64,000 bases of DNA, from NCBI RefSeq assembly GCF_028714775.1, contig NZ_JAQTLS010000002.1, positions 186,001-250,000 of the forward strand, in the 5' to 3' direction. How positions within the stretch are numbered: position 1 is the first letter of the stretch; every line of letters starts with the position of its first letter. This document shows positions 8,111 through 18,459 of the stretch, piece by piece. The stretch comes from Thiothrix sp. (GTDB taxonomy: Bacteria > Pseudomonadota > Gammaproteobacteria > Thiotrichales > Thiotrichaceae). A program made the translations under genes and the position numbers. A model generated the notes under the pieces. That model ran no database searches. It had not been told where the DNA came from and worked only from the letters and a program-made list of their open reading frames with translations.

Positions 8111-9607
8111 ATGGATCCTTTAACCCTGCTGTTGCTCCTGCCTGCTGCGGGCGCTGCTGTCGTCGCTTTGTTGCCCGGCAACCGTCCGTCATTGATCCGT
8201 AATACTGCCATCCTTGCGGCAGTGCTGACGCTGGCTTATGCCATCAGCCTGATTACACAGTTCTCCTTTATCGAACCCGGCATCCAGTTGCATGTACAAC
8301 ATGTGTGGAATGCGCAACTCGGCACATCCTTTGCTCTGGGGATCGACGGTTTTTCCTTCCCGCTAGTATTACTGACAGCTTTGCTGGTGTTGATGGCCTT
8401 GCTTGCCTCACACATGGTAACGCACCATGTTAAGGGCTATTACCTGCTGATGTTGTTGCTGGAAGCTGCCACGATGGGCGTGTTCATGGCGCAGGATTGG
8501 GGCTTGTTCTACGTGTTCTGGGAGTTGGTGCTGATCCCGCTGTTTTTCCTCATCGACCGTTGGGGCGGGAAAAACCGCCAGACTGCCGCGCTGAATTTCG
8601 TCCTTTACACCATGGGTGGCTCGATTTTCATGCTGTTGGCGTTGTTGATGTTGTTTGACGCGACTCCAGCGCACGCTTTCAGTTTCAGTGCGATGGCGGA
8701 AGGTGCGAAGCAGTTACCTGTGGGTGAACAGGTGCTGATTTTTACCGGCCTGCTGATTGGTTTCGGGGTGAAAATGCCGGTATTCCCGCTGCATGGTTGG
8801 TTGCCGCTGGCGCATGTGGAAGCACCTAGCCCGGTGAGTATTTTGCTTTCCGGTATCCTGCTGAAAATGGGTTCGTATGGGCTGATCCGTGCGATTGAAA
8901 TTTTGCCTGCTGCGGCGCAAGCGATGCAGGGAGTGTTGTTTGCACTAGGGCTGATCGGTTTGCTGTACGGTGGTTTGCTGGCTTGGCGGCAAAGCGACAT
9001 GAAAAAAATGATCGCGTATTCGTCGGTCAGCCACATGGGGGTGGTGCTGATTGGTATTTCGACCCTGAACATCTACGGCATGACGGGCGCAGTTTACCAG
9101 ATGGTGGCGCACGGATTGGTTGCGGGGGCAACTTTCATGTTGATCGGGTTGCTGTATGAACGCACCCATACGCGCGATATTAATGACTACGGCTCGCTGA
9201 TTAAGGTTACGCCGCGTTTTGCGTTCCTCATCATTTTGGCCTTTGTCGGCGGGGTGGGGTTGCCGAGTACCGCTGGATTTGTCGCGGAATTGCATGTGTT
9301 GATTGGCGGTTTCAATGTTTGGGGTTGGAGCATCGTGCTGCTGTCCTTGGGGGTGTTAGTTACTGCCACTTACAGCATCCGCACGGTTAAGCACTTGTAT
9401 ACCGGCCCGGTACGGCTGGATATGCAGCAGGTGGAAGATTTACGCCCGCTGGAAATGATGGCGGCAGGTACGCTGATTTTCGGCACGATGCTGCTGGGTT
9501 TCTACCCCACGCCGTTGCTGGACATGATGGATGTATCGGTACAGCATTTTGTTGCTGATCATGCGTTGGCAGTAGCCGCGCACCTGTCAGGAGATGTTAT
9601 GCCGTGA
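8111..9607 (+). CDS. NuoM/MrpD-like proton-conducting membrane subunit
   Basis: A 498-residue polytopic membrane protein of the complex I antiporter-like family, about 14 helices. The core proton-channel residues are present: Glu138 in FWELVLIPLFF and Lys221 in VKMPVFPLHGWLP, followed by the LLKMGSYGL segment. No other complex I subunits (NADH- or quinone-binding) are nearby. As the first gene of the DabA/DabB operon it most likely supplies a proton path for CO2 hydration rather than respiration. The ATG at 8111 is preferred over a TTG three codons upstream; no clear Shine-Dalgarno is seen. Its stop overlaps the next start. Confidence 0.88.
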   Translation: MDPLTLLLLLPAAGAAVVALLPGNRPSLIRNTAILAAVLTLAYAISLITQFSFIEPGIQLHVQHVWNAQLGTSFALGIDGFSFPLVLLTALLVLMALLASHMVTHHVKGYYLLMLLLEAATMGVFMAQDWGLFYVFWELVLIPLFFLIDRWGGKNRQTAALNFVLYTMGGSIFMLLALLMLFDATPAHAFSFSAMAEGAKQLPVGEQVLIFTGLLIGFGVKMPVFPLHGWLPLAHVEAPSPVSILLSGILLKMGSYGLIRAIEILPAAAQAMQGVLFALGLIGLLYGGLLAWRQSDMKKMIAYSSVSHMGVVLIGISTLNIYGMTGAVYQMVAHGLVAGATFMLIGLLYERTHTRDINDYGSLIKVTPRFAFLIILAFVGGVGLPSTAGFVAELHVLIGGFNVWGWSIVLLSLGVLVTATYSIRTVKHLYTGPVRLDMQQVEDLRPLEMMAAGTLIFGTMLLGFYPTPLLDMMDVSVQHFVADHALAVAAHLSGDVMP

Positions 9608-12600
9608 GTCACGCAGGGCAAGACCAACACGCTGACGCAGCATCCCATCGCTTCGGACACCTGTTGGAGCACTTGGGGCACGTTTTGCCCGGTCAAGCGC
9701 CACTGCGGGATTTTGTCCACCACAATACCTTGCACGGTTTCCAGCACCTGCCATTCCCACAAGCGCTGAAAGCGGCACATGACATCACGGGTTCACATGG
9801 CTATTTGCCCGTGGAGAAATTCCGCGAATATTTCCGTAAAGGACGCATCACGCAAGACGATTTGCAGGCGGTGTTGCAAGCAGATGCCCGTTTGGATAGC
9901 GCGGAAAGTGTTTTCAGCCATGCGCAAGGCACGGTGACACGCGGAGATATTTACCGCGCTGCAATGCTTGCCCCGATCAAGCCGATTACCCCCAGCCAAT
10001 TTGTCTGGCAAGTGGAAGAAGTCCACGCGCTGGAAACGCATGGTGAGTTGTGGGCGGCTTGCATGGAGGCATTGCAACTCGAACATTACCTGCTGCATTC
10101 CGAAGACCTGCTGAACTTTTCCCCCGAACGTGCTGCCCGTTTGTTTGCTGCCCAATTGGAAGGTGAGGCGGTCGACATCGACGAACGTTTGCGCCAAGAC
10201 GCCCAACACCAATTGCTGGAACTGACCCATCGGGTCGGCACAGACCTGACCTTGCGCGGTTTGCTGCTGGCAGTCACGGGTGAAGACATCATGCACGACA
10301 TCCGCCCGCTATTGCTGCGCCAAATGGCGGCATGGTTGGATCAGGGTATGGCAGCGTGGACGAATGGGCACGATGGAACCAGCCTGTATACGGCGTGGCG
10401 CGAGTCCAGTTTGAATGACCTTACGTCACTGCTGGAAGAGTTGCCCGATTGGCGCGAACACCTGAGTTCGCTGCCGGATGACCCGGTAGATGCAATTATT
10501 GCTGAGTTGCAGCGCATTGGTATCGCCAAAGAACAGTGGGAAAGCTATCTGGAACGGTTGGCGTTGGAACTTCCGGGCTGGTCGGGCATGTTCCTGTGGC
10601 GGCACGAACACCCCGGCTATGCAGGCATTATCCAGCCGCAGGTCGGGATGCTCGACTATCTGGCGATGCGTTTGAGTTTGGAACACTTGTTTGCCCGCCG
10701 CCTGTGCCGTCAGGTTTGGCTGATGGAAGCCAGCCTTAGCGATATTCGCGGGCGTTTCCGTCGTCACGGGGCTGAGTTTTTGGTGCGCTATTACACATTT
10801 AACCGCCGATTGCCGGAATACTTGCTCACGCCTGCGCAGCAAATGATCCAGCAGAGCCGCCCGCGTGTGTACGAAGACCAGCGCTGGAACCAGCTTGCCC
10901 ACCAGATTTGGACATGGGCGCAGGTGTTCACGGGCTGGGGTGAAGGCGCGGTTTACGATCAGGGTTGGCGCTTGTTTTCCCTTGCGCGGCAATTGCAATG
11001 GGATGCCTCCGCGATCCGCAACTTGCCCCCAGAACAGCTTGCCAAGGTGTTTGCCTGTCTGGAAACGCTGGATGAGGAACGCGCCGGTTTCCTGTGGTTG
11101 CAAGCTTACGAACGCCATTACCGCGAAGAAATTTTCAATGCGGTGGTTAACAACCACCAGCGTGGGGCGTGGGAACAGCGCGGGCAGCGTCCGCAGGCAC
11201 AGGTAGTGTTCTGCATGGATGACCGCGAAGAAGGCATCCGCCGCCATCTGGAAGAATTAAGCCCGCAAATTGAAACGTTGGGTGCTGCTGCTTTTTTCAA
11301 CCTGCCGATGAACTGGCAAGGGCTGGATGATAAGAGCGTCACCAAACTTTGCCCCGTGCCTGTGACGCCCGAACATCTGGTGCGCGAAGTGCCCGCAGAT
11401 GAGGCTGCTGAATTGCGGCGTGTACATGAGCGGCGCGTCACGTGGCGTAAACGTCTGTTCGCGGGTTTGCAACATGTTACCCGCCATAATTTGTTGTTGG
11501 GAACTCTCAGCCAGATGGTGCTGGCTCCTGCGTCATTGGGGATTATGCTAGGCAAATCCTACATGCCATTGGGTTTCGGTCAGTGGGTCAAAGGCTTGCG
11601 GCACAAGGCCGATATACCGATTCCCACCAAGCTGGAATACATTGCCTTGTCACCGGATGCGGAACGTTCCGGGCAGCAAAACCAGATGGGTTTCACCGAC
11701 ACTGAACAGGTGGAAAAGGTCGGTGATTTCCTGCGCATGATTGGCCTGACCGACGGCTTTGCTCCGCTGGTGGTGATCATGGGGCACGGTTCCACCAGCC
11801 AGAATAACCCGCACGCTGCTGCCTATGAATGCGGTGCGTGCAGCGGACGCCACAGCGGGCCGAATGCGCGGGTGTTTGCGTCGATGGCAAACCGCCCGGA
11901 AGTGCGGGCATTGTTGGTGGAGCGGGGGATTTGCATCCCTGACGATACGTGGTTCGTGGGGGCGGAACACGATACGTGCGACGAACAAATTCCGTGGTAC
12001 GACACAGACAAAGTGCCTGCTGTGTTGCGGGATAAGTTGCAAACCTTGCAGGAAGCCATCCGTGTAGCGGCGATGCATTCAGCGCATGAACGTTGCCGGA
12101 AGTTGGCTTCCGCCCCGCGTAACCCGACCTTGCAACAAGCCGCAGCGCACATTGCTAGCCGCGCCCTTGATTACAGCCAAGCTCGCCCGGAACTGGGGCA
12201 CGCCACCAACGCCAGCGCGTTTGTTGGGCGGCGCTCCATGACCCGTGGCAGTTTCCTCGACCGGCGTGGTTTCCTGATTTCCTACGATTGTACCCGCGAC
12301 CCGGATGGGAGTGTCCTCGAAGGTATCTTGCTGATGGCAGGGCCAGTGGGGGCGGGCATCAGCCTTGAATACTATTTTTCCACAGTGAACAACGAGCGTT
12401 ACGGCGCTGGCACAAAAGTGACCCACAACCTCACAGGGCTGTTTGGGGTCATGGAGGGCGTCTTTAGCGACTTGCGCACAGGTTTGCCTGCACAAATGAT
12501 CGAAATCCACGAAGCCATGCGCTTGCTGGTGGTGGTGGAAGCCAAAGCAGCTACGGTCGGGGAAATTTACGCACGCCAGCCGCCTTTACAGGAATTGATC

Positions 12601-12858
12601 GGTAATGGCTGGATTATCGTGGCGGTGAAAGACCCCGATTCGACGGCGATTGATGTGTTTGTGCCGGGAACGGGGTTTGTGCGTTGGACGGGGGAAACTC
12701 ATGCGCTGCCTGTGGTGGAGCACTCAGTAGATTGGTACAAAGGGCATTATGGGCATCTTTCTCCGGTGTTGGTGACGGCGGGAGCCACCCCTCACCCCCT
12801 AGCCCCCTCTCCCTCAAGGGGCGAGGGGGGACAAGAGAGGAGGGTGCAGCTTGTTTAA
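9604..12858 (+). CDS. dabA: DabA-type inorganic carbon transporter/hydratase subunit (first copy)
   Basis: A 1084-residue UPF0753/DUF2309 protein. DabA is the soluble zinc subunit of the DAB complex, which hydrates CO2 to bicarbonate vectorially and is powered by DabB. The beta-carbonic-anhydrase-like site is intact: Cys537 and Asp539 (FCMDDREE), His728 (MGHGS) and Cys743 (YECGACSG). The His-to-Cys spacing of 15 is as in characterised DabA. The protein is longer at the N-terminus than the Halothiobacillus protein. The GTG start overlaps the preceding stop. The C-terminal tail, from about residue 1062, is encoded by a GC-rich hairpin repeat and is unlike the tail of the second DabA, so it was probably rewritten by insertion. 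Confidence 0.93.
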   Translation: MSHAGQDQHADAASHRFGHLLEHLGHVLPGQAPLRDFVHHNTLHGFQHLPFPQALKAAHDITGSHGYLPVEKFREYFRKGRITQDDLQAVLQADARLDSAESVFSHAQGTVTRGDIYRAAMLAPIKPITPSQFVWQVEEVHALETHGELWAACMEALQLEHYLLHSEDLLNFSPERAARLFAAQLEGEAVDIDERLRQDAQHQLLELTHRVGTDLTLRGLLLAVTGEDIMHDIRPLLLRQMAAWLDQGMAAWTNGHDGTSLYTAWRESSLNDLTSLLEELPDWREHLSSLPDDPVDAIIAELQRIGIAKEQWESYLERLALELPGWSGMFLWRHEHPGYAGIIQPQVGMLDYLAMRLSLEHLFARRLCRQVWLMEASLSDIRGRFRRHGAEFLVRYYTFNRRLPEYLLTPAQQMIQQSRPRVYEDQRWNQLAHQIWTWAQVFTGWGEGAVYDQGWRLFSLARQLQWDASAIRNLPPEQLAKVFACLETLDEERAGFLWLQAYERHYREEIFNAVVNNHQRGAWEQRGQRPQAQVVFCMDDREEGIRRHLEELSPQIETLGAAAFFNLPMNWQGLDDKSVTKLCPVPVTPEHLVREVPADEAAELRRVHERRVTWRKRLFAGLQHVTRHNLLLGTLSQMVLAPASLGIMLGKSYMPLGFGQWVKGLRHKADIPIPTKLEYIALSPDAERSGQQNQMGFTDTEQVEKVGDFLRMIGLTDGFAPLVVIMGHGSTSQNNPHAAAYECGACSGRHSGPNARVFASMANRPEVRALLVERGICIPDDTWFVGAEHDTCDEQIPWYDTDKVPAVLRDKLQTLQEAIRVAAMHSAHERCRKLASAPRNPTLQQAAAHIASRALDYSQARPELGHATNASAFVGRRSMTRGSFLDRRGFLISYDCTRDPDGSVLEGILLMAGPVGAGISLEYYFSTVNNERYGAGTKVTHNLTGLFGVMEGVFSDLRTGLPAQMIEIHEAMRLLVVVEAKAATVGEIYARQPPLQELIGNGWIIVAVKDPDSTAIDVFVPGTGFVRWTGETHALPVVEHSVDWYKGHYGHLSPVLVTAGATPHPLAPSPSRGEGGQERRVQLV
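12788..12837 (+). repeat. GC-rich hairpin repeat, copy A
   Basis: A 50-base element beginning CCCCTCACC and ending GGGACAAGAG. Its reverse complement matches copy B at 49 of 50 positions. It lies inside the 3' end of the first dabA and supplies codons for TPHPLAPSPSRGEGG and the following residues. It is inverted relative to copies B and C. Confidence 0.93.
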
Positions 12859-13624
12859 TCGTGAGCGTTATCTGGAGTCTATTTTAAGTCAGTTGGGTAG
12901 TAAGGCTAGAGAAGATGATGATGTCTCTACACTGGCGGATGTCGTGCTACATGCTGAATTGGAAAGAGGACAGAGGAAAACTAAAGATAATAGTCAGGAT
13001 GGAAAACCTAATAGGGAAATAGTTGAGGTATTGGCTAGTTTACGTGCAAATGCAGCTAAAAATGACTTTGCCGACAAAATAAGAAAAGAAAACAAAATGA
13101 AGCACACACTTCGTGATGACAAAAACACTCCTGTCCCCCCTCGCCCCTTGAGGGAGAGGGGGCTAGGGGGTGAGGGGTTTCTTCGCCTTCCCATCAGCCC
13201 CGAACGCCACCTGCAAATGATGGAGTGCGCCCGCGACTTCCGTAAAATCCCCACGCCAAGTGAAGCCATTTTGTGGCAAGCTCTCCGTAACCGCCAAGTA
13301 GCGGGCTACAAATTCCGTCGCCAACAACCCATTGGAGCTTTTGTCGTGGACTTCTTCTGTGCCGAACACAATCTGATTGTCGAAGTAGACGGTGCAATCC
13401 ACGCAACCCAGATAGAACGCGACCAAGAACGCCAACACCTACTCGAATGCTGCGGCTACCAATTCCTACGCTTCACTGCCACCCAAGTAGAACAAAACCT
13501 AAAAACCGTTACCACCACTATTGAATCCACCCTCCTCTTGTCCCCCTCTCCCCTTGAGGGAGAGGGGCTAGGGGTGAGGGGTAAAGCGCAGCTTGAGGGA
13601 GAGGGGCGGATACACCATGCCTAA
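12851..13624 (+). CDS. DUF559 nuclease-like protein carrying hairpin repeats
   Basis: A 257-residue protein inserted between dabA and dabB. The start is a TTG with AGGAGGG seven bases upstream; the frame overlaps dabA by 8 bases. Residues 1-92 form an unrelated charged N-terminal part, A/T-rich at DNA level. Copy B then encodes a PPRPLRERGLGGEG linker. The DUF559 domain follows (about 115-225, a Vsr/PD-(D/E)XK-like fold), with Asp167 in VVDFFC and Glu178-Val-Asp180 in IVEVDG as likely catalytic residues. Copy C encodes the tail. DUF559 proteins are proposed nucleases; no function in CO2 transport is expected. The base use and repeat flanks suggest a mobile insertion. Confidence 0.85.
   Translation: MFNRERYLESILSQLGSKAREDDDVSTLADVVLHAELERGQRKTKDNSQDGKPNREIVEVLASLRANAAKNDFADKIRKENKMKHTLRDDKNTPVPPRPLRERGLGGEGFLRLPISPERHLQMMECARDFRKIPTPSEAILWQALRNRQVAGYKFRRQQPIGAFVVDFFCAEHNLIVEVDGAIHATQIERDQERQHLLECCGYQFLRFTATQVEQNLKTVTTTIESTLLLSPSPLEGEGLGVRGKAQLEGEGRIHHA
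13128..13177 (-). repeat. GC-rich hairpin repeat, copy B
   Basis: A 50-base copy, 49/50 identical to the reverse complement of copy A. It sits in frame just upstream of the DUF559 domain. The internal near-palindrome CCCCTCGCCC...GGGAGAGGGG can form a stable hairpin with a TTGA-type loop. Confidence 0.93.
13535..13581 (-). repeat. GC-rich hairpin repeat, copy C
   Basis: A 47-base copy in the same orientation as B, with single-base deletions in its C and G runs. It contains a perfect 10-base hairpin, 13543-13552 with 13558-13567. It encodes SPSPLEGEGLGVRG at the end of the DUF559 protein. A 15-base partial copy (CTTGAGGGAGAGGGG) follows at 13592-13606, just before dabB. Confidence 0.93.
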
Positions 13625-15186: not shown

Positions 15187-18100
15187 ATGAGTGACCACAG
15201 TCAGGCACATATTGAGCAGCGCGAGTTGCTACGGCAGGCAATTGCGGGCTTGGATGCTGTCCTGCCGATCCAAGCGCCTTTGCAGGATTTCGTCCACTTT
15301 AACCCGCTGATGAATTACGAGCATCTGCCGTTTGAGGAAGCCCTGCGCACCGTGTATGCGCAAACTGGCTCATTGGGTTATCTGCCTGCCAGTGAATACC
15401 GGCGTTTCTACCAGCAAGGGCGTATCAATCGCCTCGACATTTGCAGCATCCTTGATACCGAAGTTGATAAAGCCGACGACAAAGATATTTGGCTGACGGT
15501 GCTGGCGAATAACATCAAAGCCATTTCTTTCCAGCAAATGCGTTGGCAGGTGGAAGAAAACCGCGCATTGGAATGTTTCCAGTCGGATGTGCCGTTTGAA
15601 CAGCGCGAAAAACTGCTGGAAGCCGCAGGGCAAGATGAAGCCTGCGCAATCCGCAATCTGTGGGAAACCTGCCTGCAACGGCTGGAACTGAATTACGACC
15701 TGCCGCACCCGGAAGCCTTACTCAATTTACGTTTAGCTGACATCAATGAAATCTGGAGCCGGATCAAGCAGCAAGGCCAAATCGGTAAAGCTATCCCGGA
15801 TGCGGAAGCCCTGATCCATAGCGAAGGCCGCGAGCTGTTGCACAAGCTTGTGGATCAGGTCGGTAATGGCATTACCTTACGCACTTTGCTGAAGAAGCTG
15901 ACCGGCGTGGATGTGATGGAACAGGTATTGCCGCAACTGGGGCGTTATCTGGCAAGTTGGCTGGATCAGGGCGTGGCAGGGTTGAGGGCAGAGGGTGAAG
16001 GTTTCTACGCTTACTGGCGTGCCGCCGCATTGCAAGACATCACCCCGTGGCTGGAGGGGATGGATAACTGGGGCGATTACCTCGATTCCCTGCATGACGA
16101 CCCGTTGGAAATCATTCATCAGGAATTGATGCGCATCGGCATCGACAAGCAACACTGGGATGATTACCTACGTTCATTGGCGTTGGAACTGCCGGGTTGG
16201 TCGGGCATGTTCAACTGGCGGGCAAAAAATCCGGGCTATCTCGGCTTGCCTGCGGTCAATCAGATGGAAGATTATCTGGCGGTGCGGCTGGTGTTGGAAC
16301 ACTTGTATTGCCGCCGTTTGACCAGCGAATCGTGGCAGGTGGATGCCAGTACCATCGGTATCCGGGGCTACTTCCACCACAATGAGGACGAGTTTTTTGT
16401 CCGCTACCATGCCTATAACGCCACTTTGCCTGAATACCTGCAACAGCTTGCCCAGCAATTCCTTGAAAGCCAAGAAGACATCCAGCCGCTGGAATGGCAT
16501 CAGCTTGCCCACCAAATCCTGACGTGGAACCTTGCCCCAGAAACCGTGATTCCGGTCGGAACTGACATCTACCGGAAGGCATGGCGACTGTTCCACCTTG
16601 CCCAGCACATGGGAATGGATGCGCAGCGTTTCGCGCAACTGGAACGGGAGCGGATCGACCGCTTGTTGAGTGTTTTGGAAGCACTGGATGACCCCAATAC
16701 CAGCGGTTACTTGTGGTTACGGGCGTATGAACACCACTTTCAGGAAGAAATTTTCAGTGCGTTGCTGAATAAGCACATGACCCCTCACCCCCAAACCCCC
16801 GCACCCAGCCCCTTGCAGGGTCGTCCCTCAAGGGGCGAGGGGGCTTCACCCGTTGCCCAACTGATTTTCTGTATGGATGACCGCGAGGAAAGTGTGCGCC
16901 GCCATCTGGAAGAACTTGCCCCGGAACTGGAAACCTTGGGCGCGGCGGGCGTGTTTGGTTTGCCCAATAACTGGCGTTCGTTGGATGGTTGCAAGCCGAT
17001 CAAATTGGCGCAGCCGGTGGTGACGGCAGTGCATGAATTCCGCGAAGTGCCGACTGCCAGTGGGCAACAGCGCTTACCACTGCACCGGAAACGCCAGCGT
17101 GCCATCGAATGGCTCAAGCGCATGAAAAACCATTGGATGCGCCACGGGGTGCTGGAAACTGCGCTGGCATTGCCAGTACTTGCTCCGTTCGCCTTGCTGG
17201 AATTGCTGGGGCGCAGTTTGATGCCGTCGGCTTACCAGCGTTTCATGGCTAAGATGCAGCGTAAGGCCAGTTTGCCCGTGCAGGCGCGTGTTGATTACAC
17301 CGCCCGCGAAGCGTTGGAATGCCCGAGTGCCGCGCAAAACCAGATTGGACTGAGTGCTGAGGAAAAGGTGGCTAAGGTCGCGGCTTTCCTCAAACTGACG
17401 GGTTTTACCAGCGGCTTTTCCCCCTTGGTGGTGTTGATGGCGCACCGTTCGCGCCATTTGAATAACCCGCATATCCTTGGCTACGGTTGTGGGGCGTGCA
17501 GCGGGCGTTTCGGCGGGCCGAATGCGCGTGCTTTCGCCGGGATGGTGAACGAGTTGGAAGTGCGGGCGCAACTGGCTGCCCAGCATGGCATCAGTATTCC
17601 TGATGAATGCCGTTTCATTGCCAGCGAGCACGATACCACCAGCGATGATATTGACTGGTTTGATACGGATTTGATCCCCGCCAGCCATCAAGCGCTCTTC
17701 CAGCGGGTGCGGCAAGCAACGGAACAGGCGGTGCGCCAGTCTTCACACGAACGTTGCCGCAAGTTTGCTTCCGCCCCGACGAAATTATCCCCAGCACAGG
17801 CCAAACGCCATGTGCAAGCACGGGCGGCATCCCCCGACCAAGTGCGGGCGGAATTGGGGCATCAAGGCTGTGCGGTGGCTTTCATCGGCCCGCGTAGCTT
17901 GAGCAAAGGCATTTTCTGGGATCGGCGCTCCTTCCTGATTTCCTACAACCCGCACAATGACCCGGAAGGGCGGATGCTGGAAGCGCAATTGCAAGGCAAC
18001 GGCGTGGTCGGGGTCGGTATCCAGATGGATTACTATTTCTCGCGGATGCAAAGTGGTTACTTCGGTTCCGGCAGCAAGGCTACGCATAACCTGACGGGGC

Positions 18101-18459
18101 TGTTCGGGGTGATGGAAGGGGCTTCCAGCGATTTGCGCACCGGCCTTGCCCAACAAATGGTGGAATTGCACGAACCGATGCGCTTGCTGGTGGTGGTGGA
18201 AGCCGAACCCGAAACATTGGGGCTGATTTACCAGCGCCATGCTTATTTGCGGCAGTTGCTGGACAATGATTGGGTATTGTTGGCAGTGAAACCGCCCCAC
18301 AGCAATGAAATCCAGCAGTTCAAGCCGGGGGTAGGCTTTGTAAAGTGGCAGGGAATGTTGCATAAATTACCGCAAGCCAACAGTTCGGCGGAATGGTATA
18401 GCGGGCATCACGGGCATTTGTCGCCTGCACAAATTGGTGGGGAGGTGGCTTATGCCTGA
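15187..18459 (+). CDS. dabA: DabA-type inorganic carbon transporter/hydratase subunit (second copy)
   Basis: A 1090-residue paralogue of the first DabA in the same operon. Zinc-site residues are Cys562 and Asp564 (FCMDDREES), His753 and Cys768, with the same His-Cys spacing of 15. Residues about 532-553 are encoded by hairpin-repeat copy D, inserted in frame some ten residues before the catalytic Cys. The first DabA has a shorter, unrelated segment there. It follows dabB by 13 bases and overlaps the next dabB by 8 bases, so this DabA-DabB pair is tightly coupled. Confidence 0.93.
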   Translation: MSDHSQAHIEQRELLRQAIAGLDAVLPIQAPLQDFVHFNPLMNYEHLPFEEALRTVYAQTGSLGYLPASEYRRFYQQGRINRLDICSILDTEVDKADDKDIWLTVLANNIKAISFQQMRWQVEENRALECFQSDVPFEQREKLLEAAGQDEACAIRNLWETCLQRLELNYDLPHPEALLNLRLADINEIWSRIKQQGQIGKAIPDAEALIHSEGRELLHKLVDQVGNGITLRTLLKKLTGVDVMEQVLPQLGRYLASWLDQGVAGLRAEGEGFYAYWRAAALQDITPWLEGMDNWGDYLDSLHDDPLEIIHQELMRIGIDKQHWDDYLRSLALELPGWSGMFNWRAKNPGYLGLPAVNQMEDYLAVRLVLEHLYCRRLTSESWQVDASTIGIRGYFHHNEDEFFVRYHAYNATLPEYLQQLAQQFLESQEDIQPLEWHQLAHQILTWNLAPETVIPVGTDIYRKAWRLFHLAQHMGMDAQRFAQLERERIDRLLSVLEALDDPNTSGYLWLRAYEHHFQEEIFSALLNKHMTPHPQTPAPSPLQGRPSRGEGASPVAQLIFCMDDREESVRRHLEELAPELETLGAAGVFGLPNNWRSLDGCKPIKLAQPVVTAVHEFREVPTASGQQRLPLHRKRQRAIEWLKRMKNHWMRHGVLETALALPVLAPFALLELLGRSLMPSAYQRFMAKMQRKASLPVQARVDYTAREALECPSAAQNQIGLSAEEKVAKVAAFLKLTGFTSGFSPLVVLMAHRSRHLNNPHILGYGCGACSGRFGGPNARAFAGMVNELEVRAQLAAQHGISIPDECRFIASEHDTTSDDIDWFDTDLIPASHQALFQRVRQATEQAVRQSSHERCRKFASAPTKLSPAQAKRHVQARAASPDQVRAELGHQGCAVAFIGPRSLSKGIFWDRRSFLISYNPHNDPEGRMLEAQLQGNGVVGVGIQMDYYFSRMQSGYFGSGSKATHNLTGLFGVMEGASSDLRTGLAQQMVELHEPMRLLVVVEAEPETLGLIYQRHAYLRQLLDNDWVLLAVKPPHSNEIQQFKPGVGFVKWQGMLHKLPQANSSAEWYSGHHGHLSPAQIGGEVAYA
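16781..16843 (+). repeat. GC-rich hairpin repeat, copy D (within the second dabA)
   Basis: A 63-base variant in the same orientation as copy A. The left end CCCCTCACCCCC and right end TCCCTCAAGGGGCGAGGGGG match copy A, but the middle is replaced by about 30 other bases (including CCCCTTGCAGGG). It keeps the dabA reading frame and adds a Pro/Gly/Arg-rich segment close to the active-site cysteine. Confidence 0.88.

Follow-up and report, generated by a model that had tools for sequence, protein, structure and literature searches.

Stand-alone DUF559 nuclease genes and intrastrand triplex motifs: a probable nuclease-repeat partnership represented in a Thiothrix dab operon

The subject of this report is a stretch of 64,000 nucleotides from Thiothrix sp. 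(NCBI RefSeq assembly GCF_028714775.1, contig NZ_JAQTLS010000002.1, positions 186,001 to 250,000), referred to here as the window, in which a gene for a DUF559 nuclease lies among GC-rich repeats of about 50 nucleotides. Judged by its architecture, the repeat is an intrastrand triplex motif (TM), an already described class known in Escherichia coli as BoxC or PIT. We think it probable that the window locus exemplifies a nuclease-repeat partnership of wide distribution, in which stand-alone DUF559 genes travel with their cognate TMs, and the evidence suggests that DUF559 nucleases are the hitherto missing partner by which these repeats spread or are maintained. The original prediction, made from the letters of the window, had envisaged a possible undescribed mobile element. 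The repeat itself is of a known class (PMC4666352); what is new is the pairing of the TM with stand-alone DUF559 genes, the repeat and the protein family having been known separately. A search of the full-text literature, with most subscription journals and bioRxiv preprints outside its scope, returned no publication linking DUF559 or Vsr-like genes to TM repeats.

Triplex motifs at DUF559 genes

In the 4.3-Mb genome to which the window belongs, the matches of a blast search with the window stretch merge to at least 57 places, with 13 neighboring pairs less than 150 nt apart. Each of the three DUF559 matches in this genome is flanked on both sides by TMs, and the variant differs from gene to gene. 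This arrangement is not due to chance: for the 57 or more places together, the expected number falling within 400 bp of one or another of these genes is about 0.03.

The same holds much more widely. Flanking TMs were analyzed at 133 DUF559 loci, of which 125 were testable, and at 85 of these the motif finder detected TMs on either side of the gene at a distance of no more than 400 bp; at 112 there was one on at least one side. Excluded beforehand were L031 and L050-L054 (a large protein, a contig end, and fragments) and L075, which is the same place as L012; the model used to find the domain included one wrong-strand seed (L030). At control positions, drawn only from the long named loci L076-L154, TMs were found on both sides at 0 of 108 and on one or more sides at 9. 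Within the genus, at least one TM accompanies every one of the 33 testable loci and 28 are flanked on both sides, so that the flanks predicted for DUF559 genes of related genomes are indeed present. Outside it, two-sided TMs occur at 57 of 92 loci and at least one TM at 79, figures made up of other relatives (2/4 and 3/4), named loci (43/71 and 61/71), and a class sample (12/17 and 15/17). Other gene families of the genus behave quite differently: two-sided TMs were found at none of the loci for Y1 transposases (0/17), the dabA end (0/24), rluA (0/15), or gor (0/16), and TMs on one or more sides at 2/17, 3/24, 1/15, and 3/16, respectively (9/72 in total). Eight weak or large-protein DUF559 matches had TMs at none. 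The repeats are thus genome-wide, yet the enrichment at DUF559 genes foreseen by the original prediction is clear.

A comparison of the 600 bp upstream with the 600 bp downstream of each gene found similarity reaching the threshold at 49 of 68 testable loci, taken from 80 named loci that were the best of 233; of 115 control positions within these stretches, one reached it. The titles of the named loci include Pseudomonadota groups, Chloroflexi, Cyanobacteria, Desulfobulbaceae, Nitrospirae, and Verrucomicrobia. In an evenly drawn class sample, consisting of the 17 stand-alone loci returned by the search rather than every listed match, 14 were above threshold.

Co-occurrence was also assessed over 114 genomes of the class, with a stand-alone DUF559 gene defined as a match of at least 65 bits and the resulting split of 22 with and 92 without read by eye (the genome of the window is among the 22). 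The strict TM pattern was present in 17/22 genomes with the gene and 13/92 without it (Fisher 2e-8), and five or more TM copies in 10/22 and 7/92 (8e-5). Absences in this census may be misses, because the E. coli control genome gave no PF04480 match even though YcjD of strain MG1655 scores 167 bits. In one TM-rich draft genome (G069), several TMs lie at contig ends, and TM-flanked genes may therefore drop out of draft assemblies.

A plasmid collection yielded 31 records with a match, six of which were read by eye. Repeats lie on both sides of the gene in Neisseria, Deinococcus, and Picosynechococcus (another motif variant), and on one side only in two E. coli records (downstream) and in Azospirillum (upstream). 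On the Picosynechococcus plasmid pAQ6, the DUF559 gene is found among many CCCCCGATTCGGGGGCTAGGGGG-type repeats, possibly a further variant of the motif; at the N. gonorrhoeae locus (L242), the flanking variants are seen by eye to be of a GAGAG/CTCTC type with an ACAAG tag.

The plasmid-collection search and the two E. coli records led to ycjD (b1289), which encodes a DUF559 protein (E 1.4e-49). Of 5426 E. coli genomes, 3352 retain 80% or more of the 601-base ycjD query and 4595 some part of it. The TM numbered 9 among the E. coli elements (TM_ECO) lies about 170 nt beyond the end of ycjD in MG1655; given the 23 listed TMs, the chance expectation for the 400 bp around the gene is 0.006. Inspection by eye of MG1655 positions 1350000-1354500 (L246) revealed decayed TM copies in the tail of the gene and in the downstream gap, and no TM was visible in the short upstream gap. 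Two strains in which sapF alone was matched were considered as clean empty ycjD sites and were set aside, as efflux genes follow sapF in both and no ends could be defined.

The type of TM, moreover, matches the clade of the nuclease, also at unrelated sites. When a gene was compared with a second DUF559 gene of its genome, its own upstream and downstream TMs were the better match to each other in 21 of 24 cases, the worse in two, and tied in one. On a tree of the 33 nucleases of the genus, ten TM types (named by our own text rules, types v and iii_b alone not forming one clade) require nine changes, the minimum possible, compared with a shuffled mean of 20.8, and the Mantel r is 0.78 within the genus (n = 33) and 0.35 outside it (n = 85); for clades ii and iii both results are inflated by common descent of the sites, outer flanks being shared by 4/5 and 3/4 genes, respectively. 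Clade i, however, keeps one TM type across 11 genes at about nine unrelated sites, and the two genes of clade vi, at two sites, have a type of their own. Of the four exact type-iv cores in genome G008, three are located at its DUF559 gene. Genome-wide counts across the genus cover types i and iv. The ten genomes that have a type-i gene hold 3-44 type-i cores each, and the six that lack one hold 0-27; a strict presence/absence tie between repeat type and cognate gene was not found within the genus, both types being loose in this respect.

Filled and empty versions of the same sites show that TMs insert, and that different types have entered the same gap. Between grx and gor, a TM pair was seen by eye in 3/16 genomes (two with type iii, one with type iv); the other 13 have none. 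Orthologous dab operons were compared as the original prediction had proposed: among the ten closest matches read, the dabA-dabB junction is empty in seven and filled in the genome of the window (G000) and in two others (G006 and G014). The second dabA gene carries a TM in 1/13 homologues. The rluA site of L009 was considered as a further empty-site comparison and dropped, there being too little synteny. A TM may stand alone, be paired with another in inverted orientation (a REPIN-like form that lacks the gene), or lie with others around the nuclease gene; in close pairs, the third arms point outward in 65/94.

The window locus and its repeats

The features of the locus, which is situated between the inorganic-carbon transporter genes dabA (frame 9604-12858) and dabB (ATG at 13617), are as follows.

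12787-12837, reverse strand: TM copy A (stem, loop, stem, third arm), 98% complementary to copy B as a 51-nt inverted pair
12851-13624, forward strand: open reading frame (ORF) with the DUF559 domain, 257 residues, TTG start in the mechanical ORF list
12851-13127, forward strand: remnant of a NACHT-type NTPase gene, collapsed by internal deletion; its N terminus resembles the G006 and G014 frames
13128-13178, forward strand: TM copy B, comprising CTCCTGT, C stem, loop, G stem, CTA, and GGGGGTGAGGGGT
13220-13531, forward strand: DUF559 nuclease domain, Vsr-like or homing-endonuclease-like (PF04480, E 2.3e-33; ORF residues 124-227)
13532-13582, forward strand: TM copy C, in the same orientation as B, with a perfect 10-bp stem
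13583-13612, forward strand: extra partial piece of copy C (by eye); tandem copies of the same stretch are present in G014
about 16780-16846, reverse strand: fourth TM, partial and rearranged, in frame inside the second dabA (15187-18459)

The layout originally described was borne out: three GC-rich copies of about 50 nt frame the nuclease domain, A is inverted relative to B, C runs in the same direction as B, the domain sits between B and C, and the 10-base hairpin of C (CCCCTCTCCC/GGGAGAGGGG) is perfect. The 26-nt core of C (13542-13567) is 96% identical to B. Copy A is translated as the final residues of the dabA frame. The foot of the stem reads TCTTGT in A and C and TCCTGT in B, and the order of parts, 5' to 3', is TCTTGT/TCCTGT, C-rich stem, loop, G-rich stem, CTA, and G-rich third arm. 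The fourth copy is real, although partial; it forms an in-frame translated loop of the second DabA protein (MTPHPQTPAPSPLQGRPSRGEGASPV) in this genome only, and was without counterpart in all 12 of the other second-dabA homologues read.

According to Holder et al. (2015, PMC4666352), the TM is a hairpin with a third, G-rich arm, earlier named BoxC or PIT, and is known from more than 260 genomes; MG1655 has 23 catalogued copies, with five cases of two subtypes paired in inverted orientation. Triplex formation in solution was reported there for TM_ECO, and not for the window variant, by circular dichroism and NMR (nuclear magnetic resonance) spectroscopy. The window copies have the same architecture (C stem, loop, G stem, spacer of 2-3 nt, and a mirroring third G-rich arm), and share with the E. 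coli elements the inverted pairing of two subtypes and the scattering of copies. The difference is that the motif is here tied to a nuclease family, whereas Holder et al. report no association with mobile elements, and the terms endonuclease, Vsr, ycjD, and DUF gave no match in the main text of that paper (PMC4666352). A recurrent G-rich motif of the archaeal Methanomicrobiaceae among the oligonucleotides of PMC8044849 has a similar design of third arm, stem, loop, and stem, in the opposite order.

The mirror symmetry of the third arm was evaluated over 235 distinct elements, with the register optimized in the same way for the mirror reading, the direct reading, and the shuffles; the shuffles make no correction for relatedness. 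The third arm mirrors the G stem with a score of 0.907, compared with 0.804 for shuffled third arms (0/1000 as high) and 0.796 when read as a direct copy; the mirror reading was better than the direct one in 156 elements, worse in five, and tied in 74. A first version of the test (171/257 stem A positions mirrored by A/T; 35.8% shuffled) was discarded as biased because ties were broken by the mirror score, and a register-blind version gave hardly any difference (96/289 mirror, 92/289 direct). Unusual folding energy of the DNA was considered as a hallmark of the window copies and ruled out: the duplex-only folding of all four is ordinary relative to shuffles (z -0.96 to -1.72). Their standout feature is the mirror-symmetric G-rich third arm rather than the energy of the hairpin.

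The nuclease domain was modeled with a mean pLDDT (predicted local distance difference test) of 84.7, and the predicted fold matches that of a homing endonuclease. Foldseek returned 3hrl (E 1.7e-7) and the homing endonuclease I-Bth0305I (3r3p, 3.2e-4), with Vsr (1vsr) a weaker match at 0.044, and phmmer also gave a match to 3hrl (E 1.4e-18). The ORF is composite, its first part being the NTPase remnant and its C-terminal tail the translation of copy C.

One part of the original interpretation needs to be revised. At the same site, G006 and G014 have long open frames of 1230 and 1355 codons, stop to stop, that of G014 with NACHT and HEAT domains, and the order of the insert in both is TM, long frame, TM, DUF559, TM (with an assembly gap at the second TM in G014). 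In the window only the two ends of this gene remain between A and B, about 90 codons. The A-B stretch is thus the collapsed remnant of a NACHT-type gene rather than part of the nuclease, and the idea that A, B, and C are three ends of one nuclease element was abandoned, since A and B bracket the NACHT-type gene in G006 and G014. This gene may be cargo and is perhaps a defense gene.

Proposed mechanism and rival explanations

The data show the association, the matching of types, the recurrence of one clade with its TM type at different sites, the filled and empty sites, and the predicted fold; the route by which these repeats would spread is inferred. The nuclease would recognize its own TM variant, probably when the strand folds in replication or transcription, and would nick or cut at the edge of the TM. 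Host break repair would then copy the TM-bounded DNA into new or TM-bearing sites, and the unit copied could be a TM pair or the TMs with the nuclease gene, sometimes together with cargo such as the NACHT gene. We know of no strand-transfer chemistry in PD-(D/E)XK-type nucleases, which can cut DNA, and insertion would therefore have to rely on host repair. A homing-like or REP-like mode of spread, after the repetitive extragenic palindromic (REP) sequences, is suggested by the homing/Vsr-like fold, by the assignment of a Thermosynechococcus DUF559 gene to the EDxHD homing family (PMC9403480), by the role of Caulobacter crescentus VsrA in the SOS response (PMC12907096), and by recombination hotspots in Legionella pneumophila (PMC12308824). 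The original hypothesis that the nuclease recognizes or mobilizes the hairpin gains support from the association, whereas mobilization itself is what we infer.

Several observations weigh against the proposed partnership, among them the lack of any known strand-transfer chemistry and the inflation by shared sites mentioned above. No clear target duplication was seen by eye in the filled/empty comparison at grx-gor, with ends placed to about 10 nt. Around the gene, the nearest TMs have both third arms directed inward at 53 loci and both outward at 11, with 22 loci mixed, and this diversity of orientation is a poor fit to one simple inverted-repeat transposon. The E. coli ycjD case is one-sided, and 13/125 testable loci are without any TM. 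Five of the 17 co-occurring genomes hold only one or two TMs, perhaps just those at the gene, and when six of the 13 TM-bearing genomes without a stand-alone DUF559 were searched again with our own profile, five gave no match and one a long-frame match. Repeat cores can also be abundant without their cognate gene: 27 of type i in G014, and 57 and 59 of type iv in G013 and G006, respectively. Old copies outliving a lost gene, draft assemblies, search misses, or a link weaker than proposed may all fit these exceptions.

How far other explanations can account for the data must also be considered. We regard it as unlikely that the nuclease is a Vsr-like repair factor that processes TM structures and is sited at them for regulation or policing, without spreading them. 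Its Vsr-like fold, the proposal that VsrA, a DUF559 protein induced by DNA damage, is a mismatch-repair nuclease (PMC12907096), and the broad retention of ycjD in E. coli are in keeping with such a role, but it explains neither the clade-specific TM variants at unrelated sites nor the patchy presence of the family, for which any match at all was found in 24/40 relatives. The TMs might instead be recombination hotspots that gather cassettes, DUF559 genes included, through fork stalling and short homology, the nuclease being inactive in the process. E. coli TM loci are unusually rearranged across strains (PMC4666352), the L. pneumophila segments that carry a transposase and DUF559 are recombination hotspots (PMC12308824), and a NACHT-type gene lies between TMs at the dab site; the complete lack of bracketing at 108 control positions and 72 control genes, however, makes this quite improbable.

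Slightly less probable still is the view that another enzyme, whether a REP-associated tyrosine transposase (RAYT) or an insertion sequence (IS) transposase, moves the TMs, with the DUF559 gene a passenger caught between copies. Y1 transposase genes are present in 10/16 genus genomes, and TM pairs resemble REPINs, but the other six genomes, without a Y1 match, still carry TMs, co-variation with the repeat would not be expected of a passenger, and none of the 17 Y1 loci has two-sided TMs. By eye, two of three RAYT-like loci (L064 and L063) have GTAG-type REPs, and the third (L061) has neither these nor TMs. A RAYT was rejected as the mover of TMs on the strength of the Y1-less genomes, the GTAG-type REPs, and the unbracketed Y1 loci. 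Most improbable of all is that TMs are transcription terminators or mRNA stabilizers that happen to be common near short genes: termination was proposed for the same stem in Enterobacter sp. 638 (PMC2869309), but PIT elements had neither promoter nor terminator activity in the earlier tests cited in PMC4666352, and TMs here lie on both sides of the nuclease gene and are matched to its clade.

A broader proposal can be made, to which we attach less than even confidence: TM/BoxC repeats across bacteria might be the offspring of a structure-guided, selfish homing-type DUF559 nuclease that would read the folded hairpin or triplex and copy the DNA between TMs through host repair, with YcjD the resident E. 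coli cognate. TM/BoxC and related triplex repeats are on record from E. coli and over 260 genomes (PMC4666352) without a known agent, and Pfam still gives the function of DUF559 as unknown. Their tie provides a candidate origin for the repeats and a candidate substrate for the nuclease, and is testable in E. coli K-12.

Comparison with known systems

The homing endonuclease I-Bth0305I of the EDxHD family resembles the window nuclease in the predicted Vsr-like fold of the catalytic domain (3r3p, Foldseek E 3.2e-4), but no intron or intein was seen at the window locus, and the companion DNA is a dispersed repeat. Similarity to Vsr extends to the fold (1vsr, E 0.044) and to the DUF559 domain carried by C. 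crescentus VsrA (PMC12907096). The window gene differs in being linked to repeats instead of a methyltransferase: both of its neighbors are dab genes, and none of the methyltransferase kind lies beside it, the rest of the genome not having been searched for an unlinked one. Caulobacter VsrA is itself unlinked to its partner methyltransferase, and is required for the SOS response in cells without a methyltransferase (PMC12907096). The solved structure of the family is 3hrl, ngo0050 of N. gonorrhoeae. The N. gonorrhoeae DUF559 gene at L242, with related repeats on both sides by eye, is presumably the 3hrl gene.

The closest parallel in layout is that of REP sequences and REPINs with their RAYT (the REPtron, PMC3733652), in which dispersed hairpin repeats form inverted pairs and the enzyme gene is flanked by its own type. 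The window gene is likewise flanked by its own repeat type, and the repeats are scattered, with 13 neighboring pairs among the 57 or more copies. There the likeness drawn by the original prediction ends. The enzyme is a DUF559 nuclease with a homing-endonuclease/Vsr-like predicted fold rather than an HUH tyrosine transposase, and the repeat possesses a mirroring third arm together with a tag of AAGA/TCTT-like sequence, no GTAG or CGTC being seen by eye at the hairpin foot of the window copies. Because two defining features of REP/RAYT systems, the HUH transposase and the GTAG/CGTC tag, are thus absent, the TM-DUF559 pairing could be placed in a kind of its own, although a stricter view could count it as a REP/RAYT variant. 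The one Y1 match of the same genome (L064, G000:C3:33301) is a RAYT-like gene flanked, by eye, by GTAG-type REPs, and two unrelated repeat-enzyme systems seem to coexist there. If the broader proposal above is correct, TMs and their nuclease would parallel REP/RAYT but depend on an enzyme unrelated to RAYT, a nuclease addressed by non-B DNA structure; and should the nuclease read the folded structure, nature would have found a second, unrelated solution to the job that RAYTs perform on REPs.

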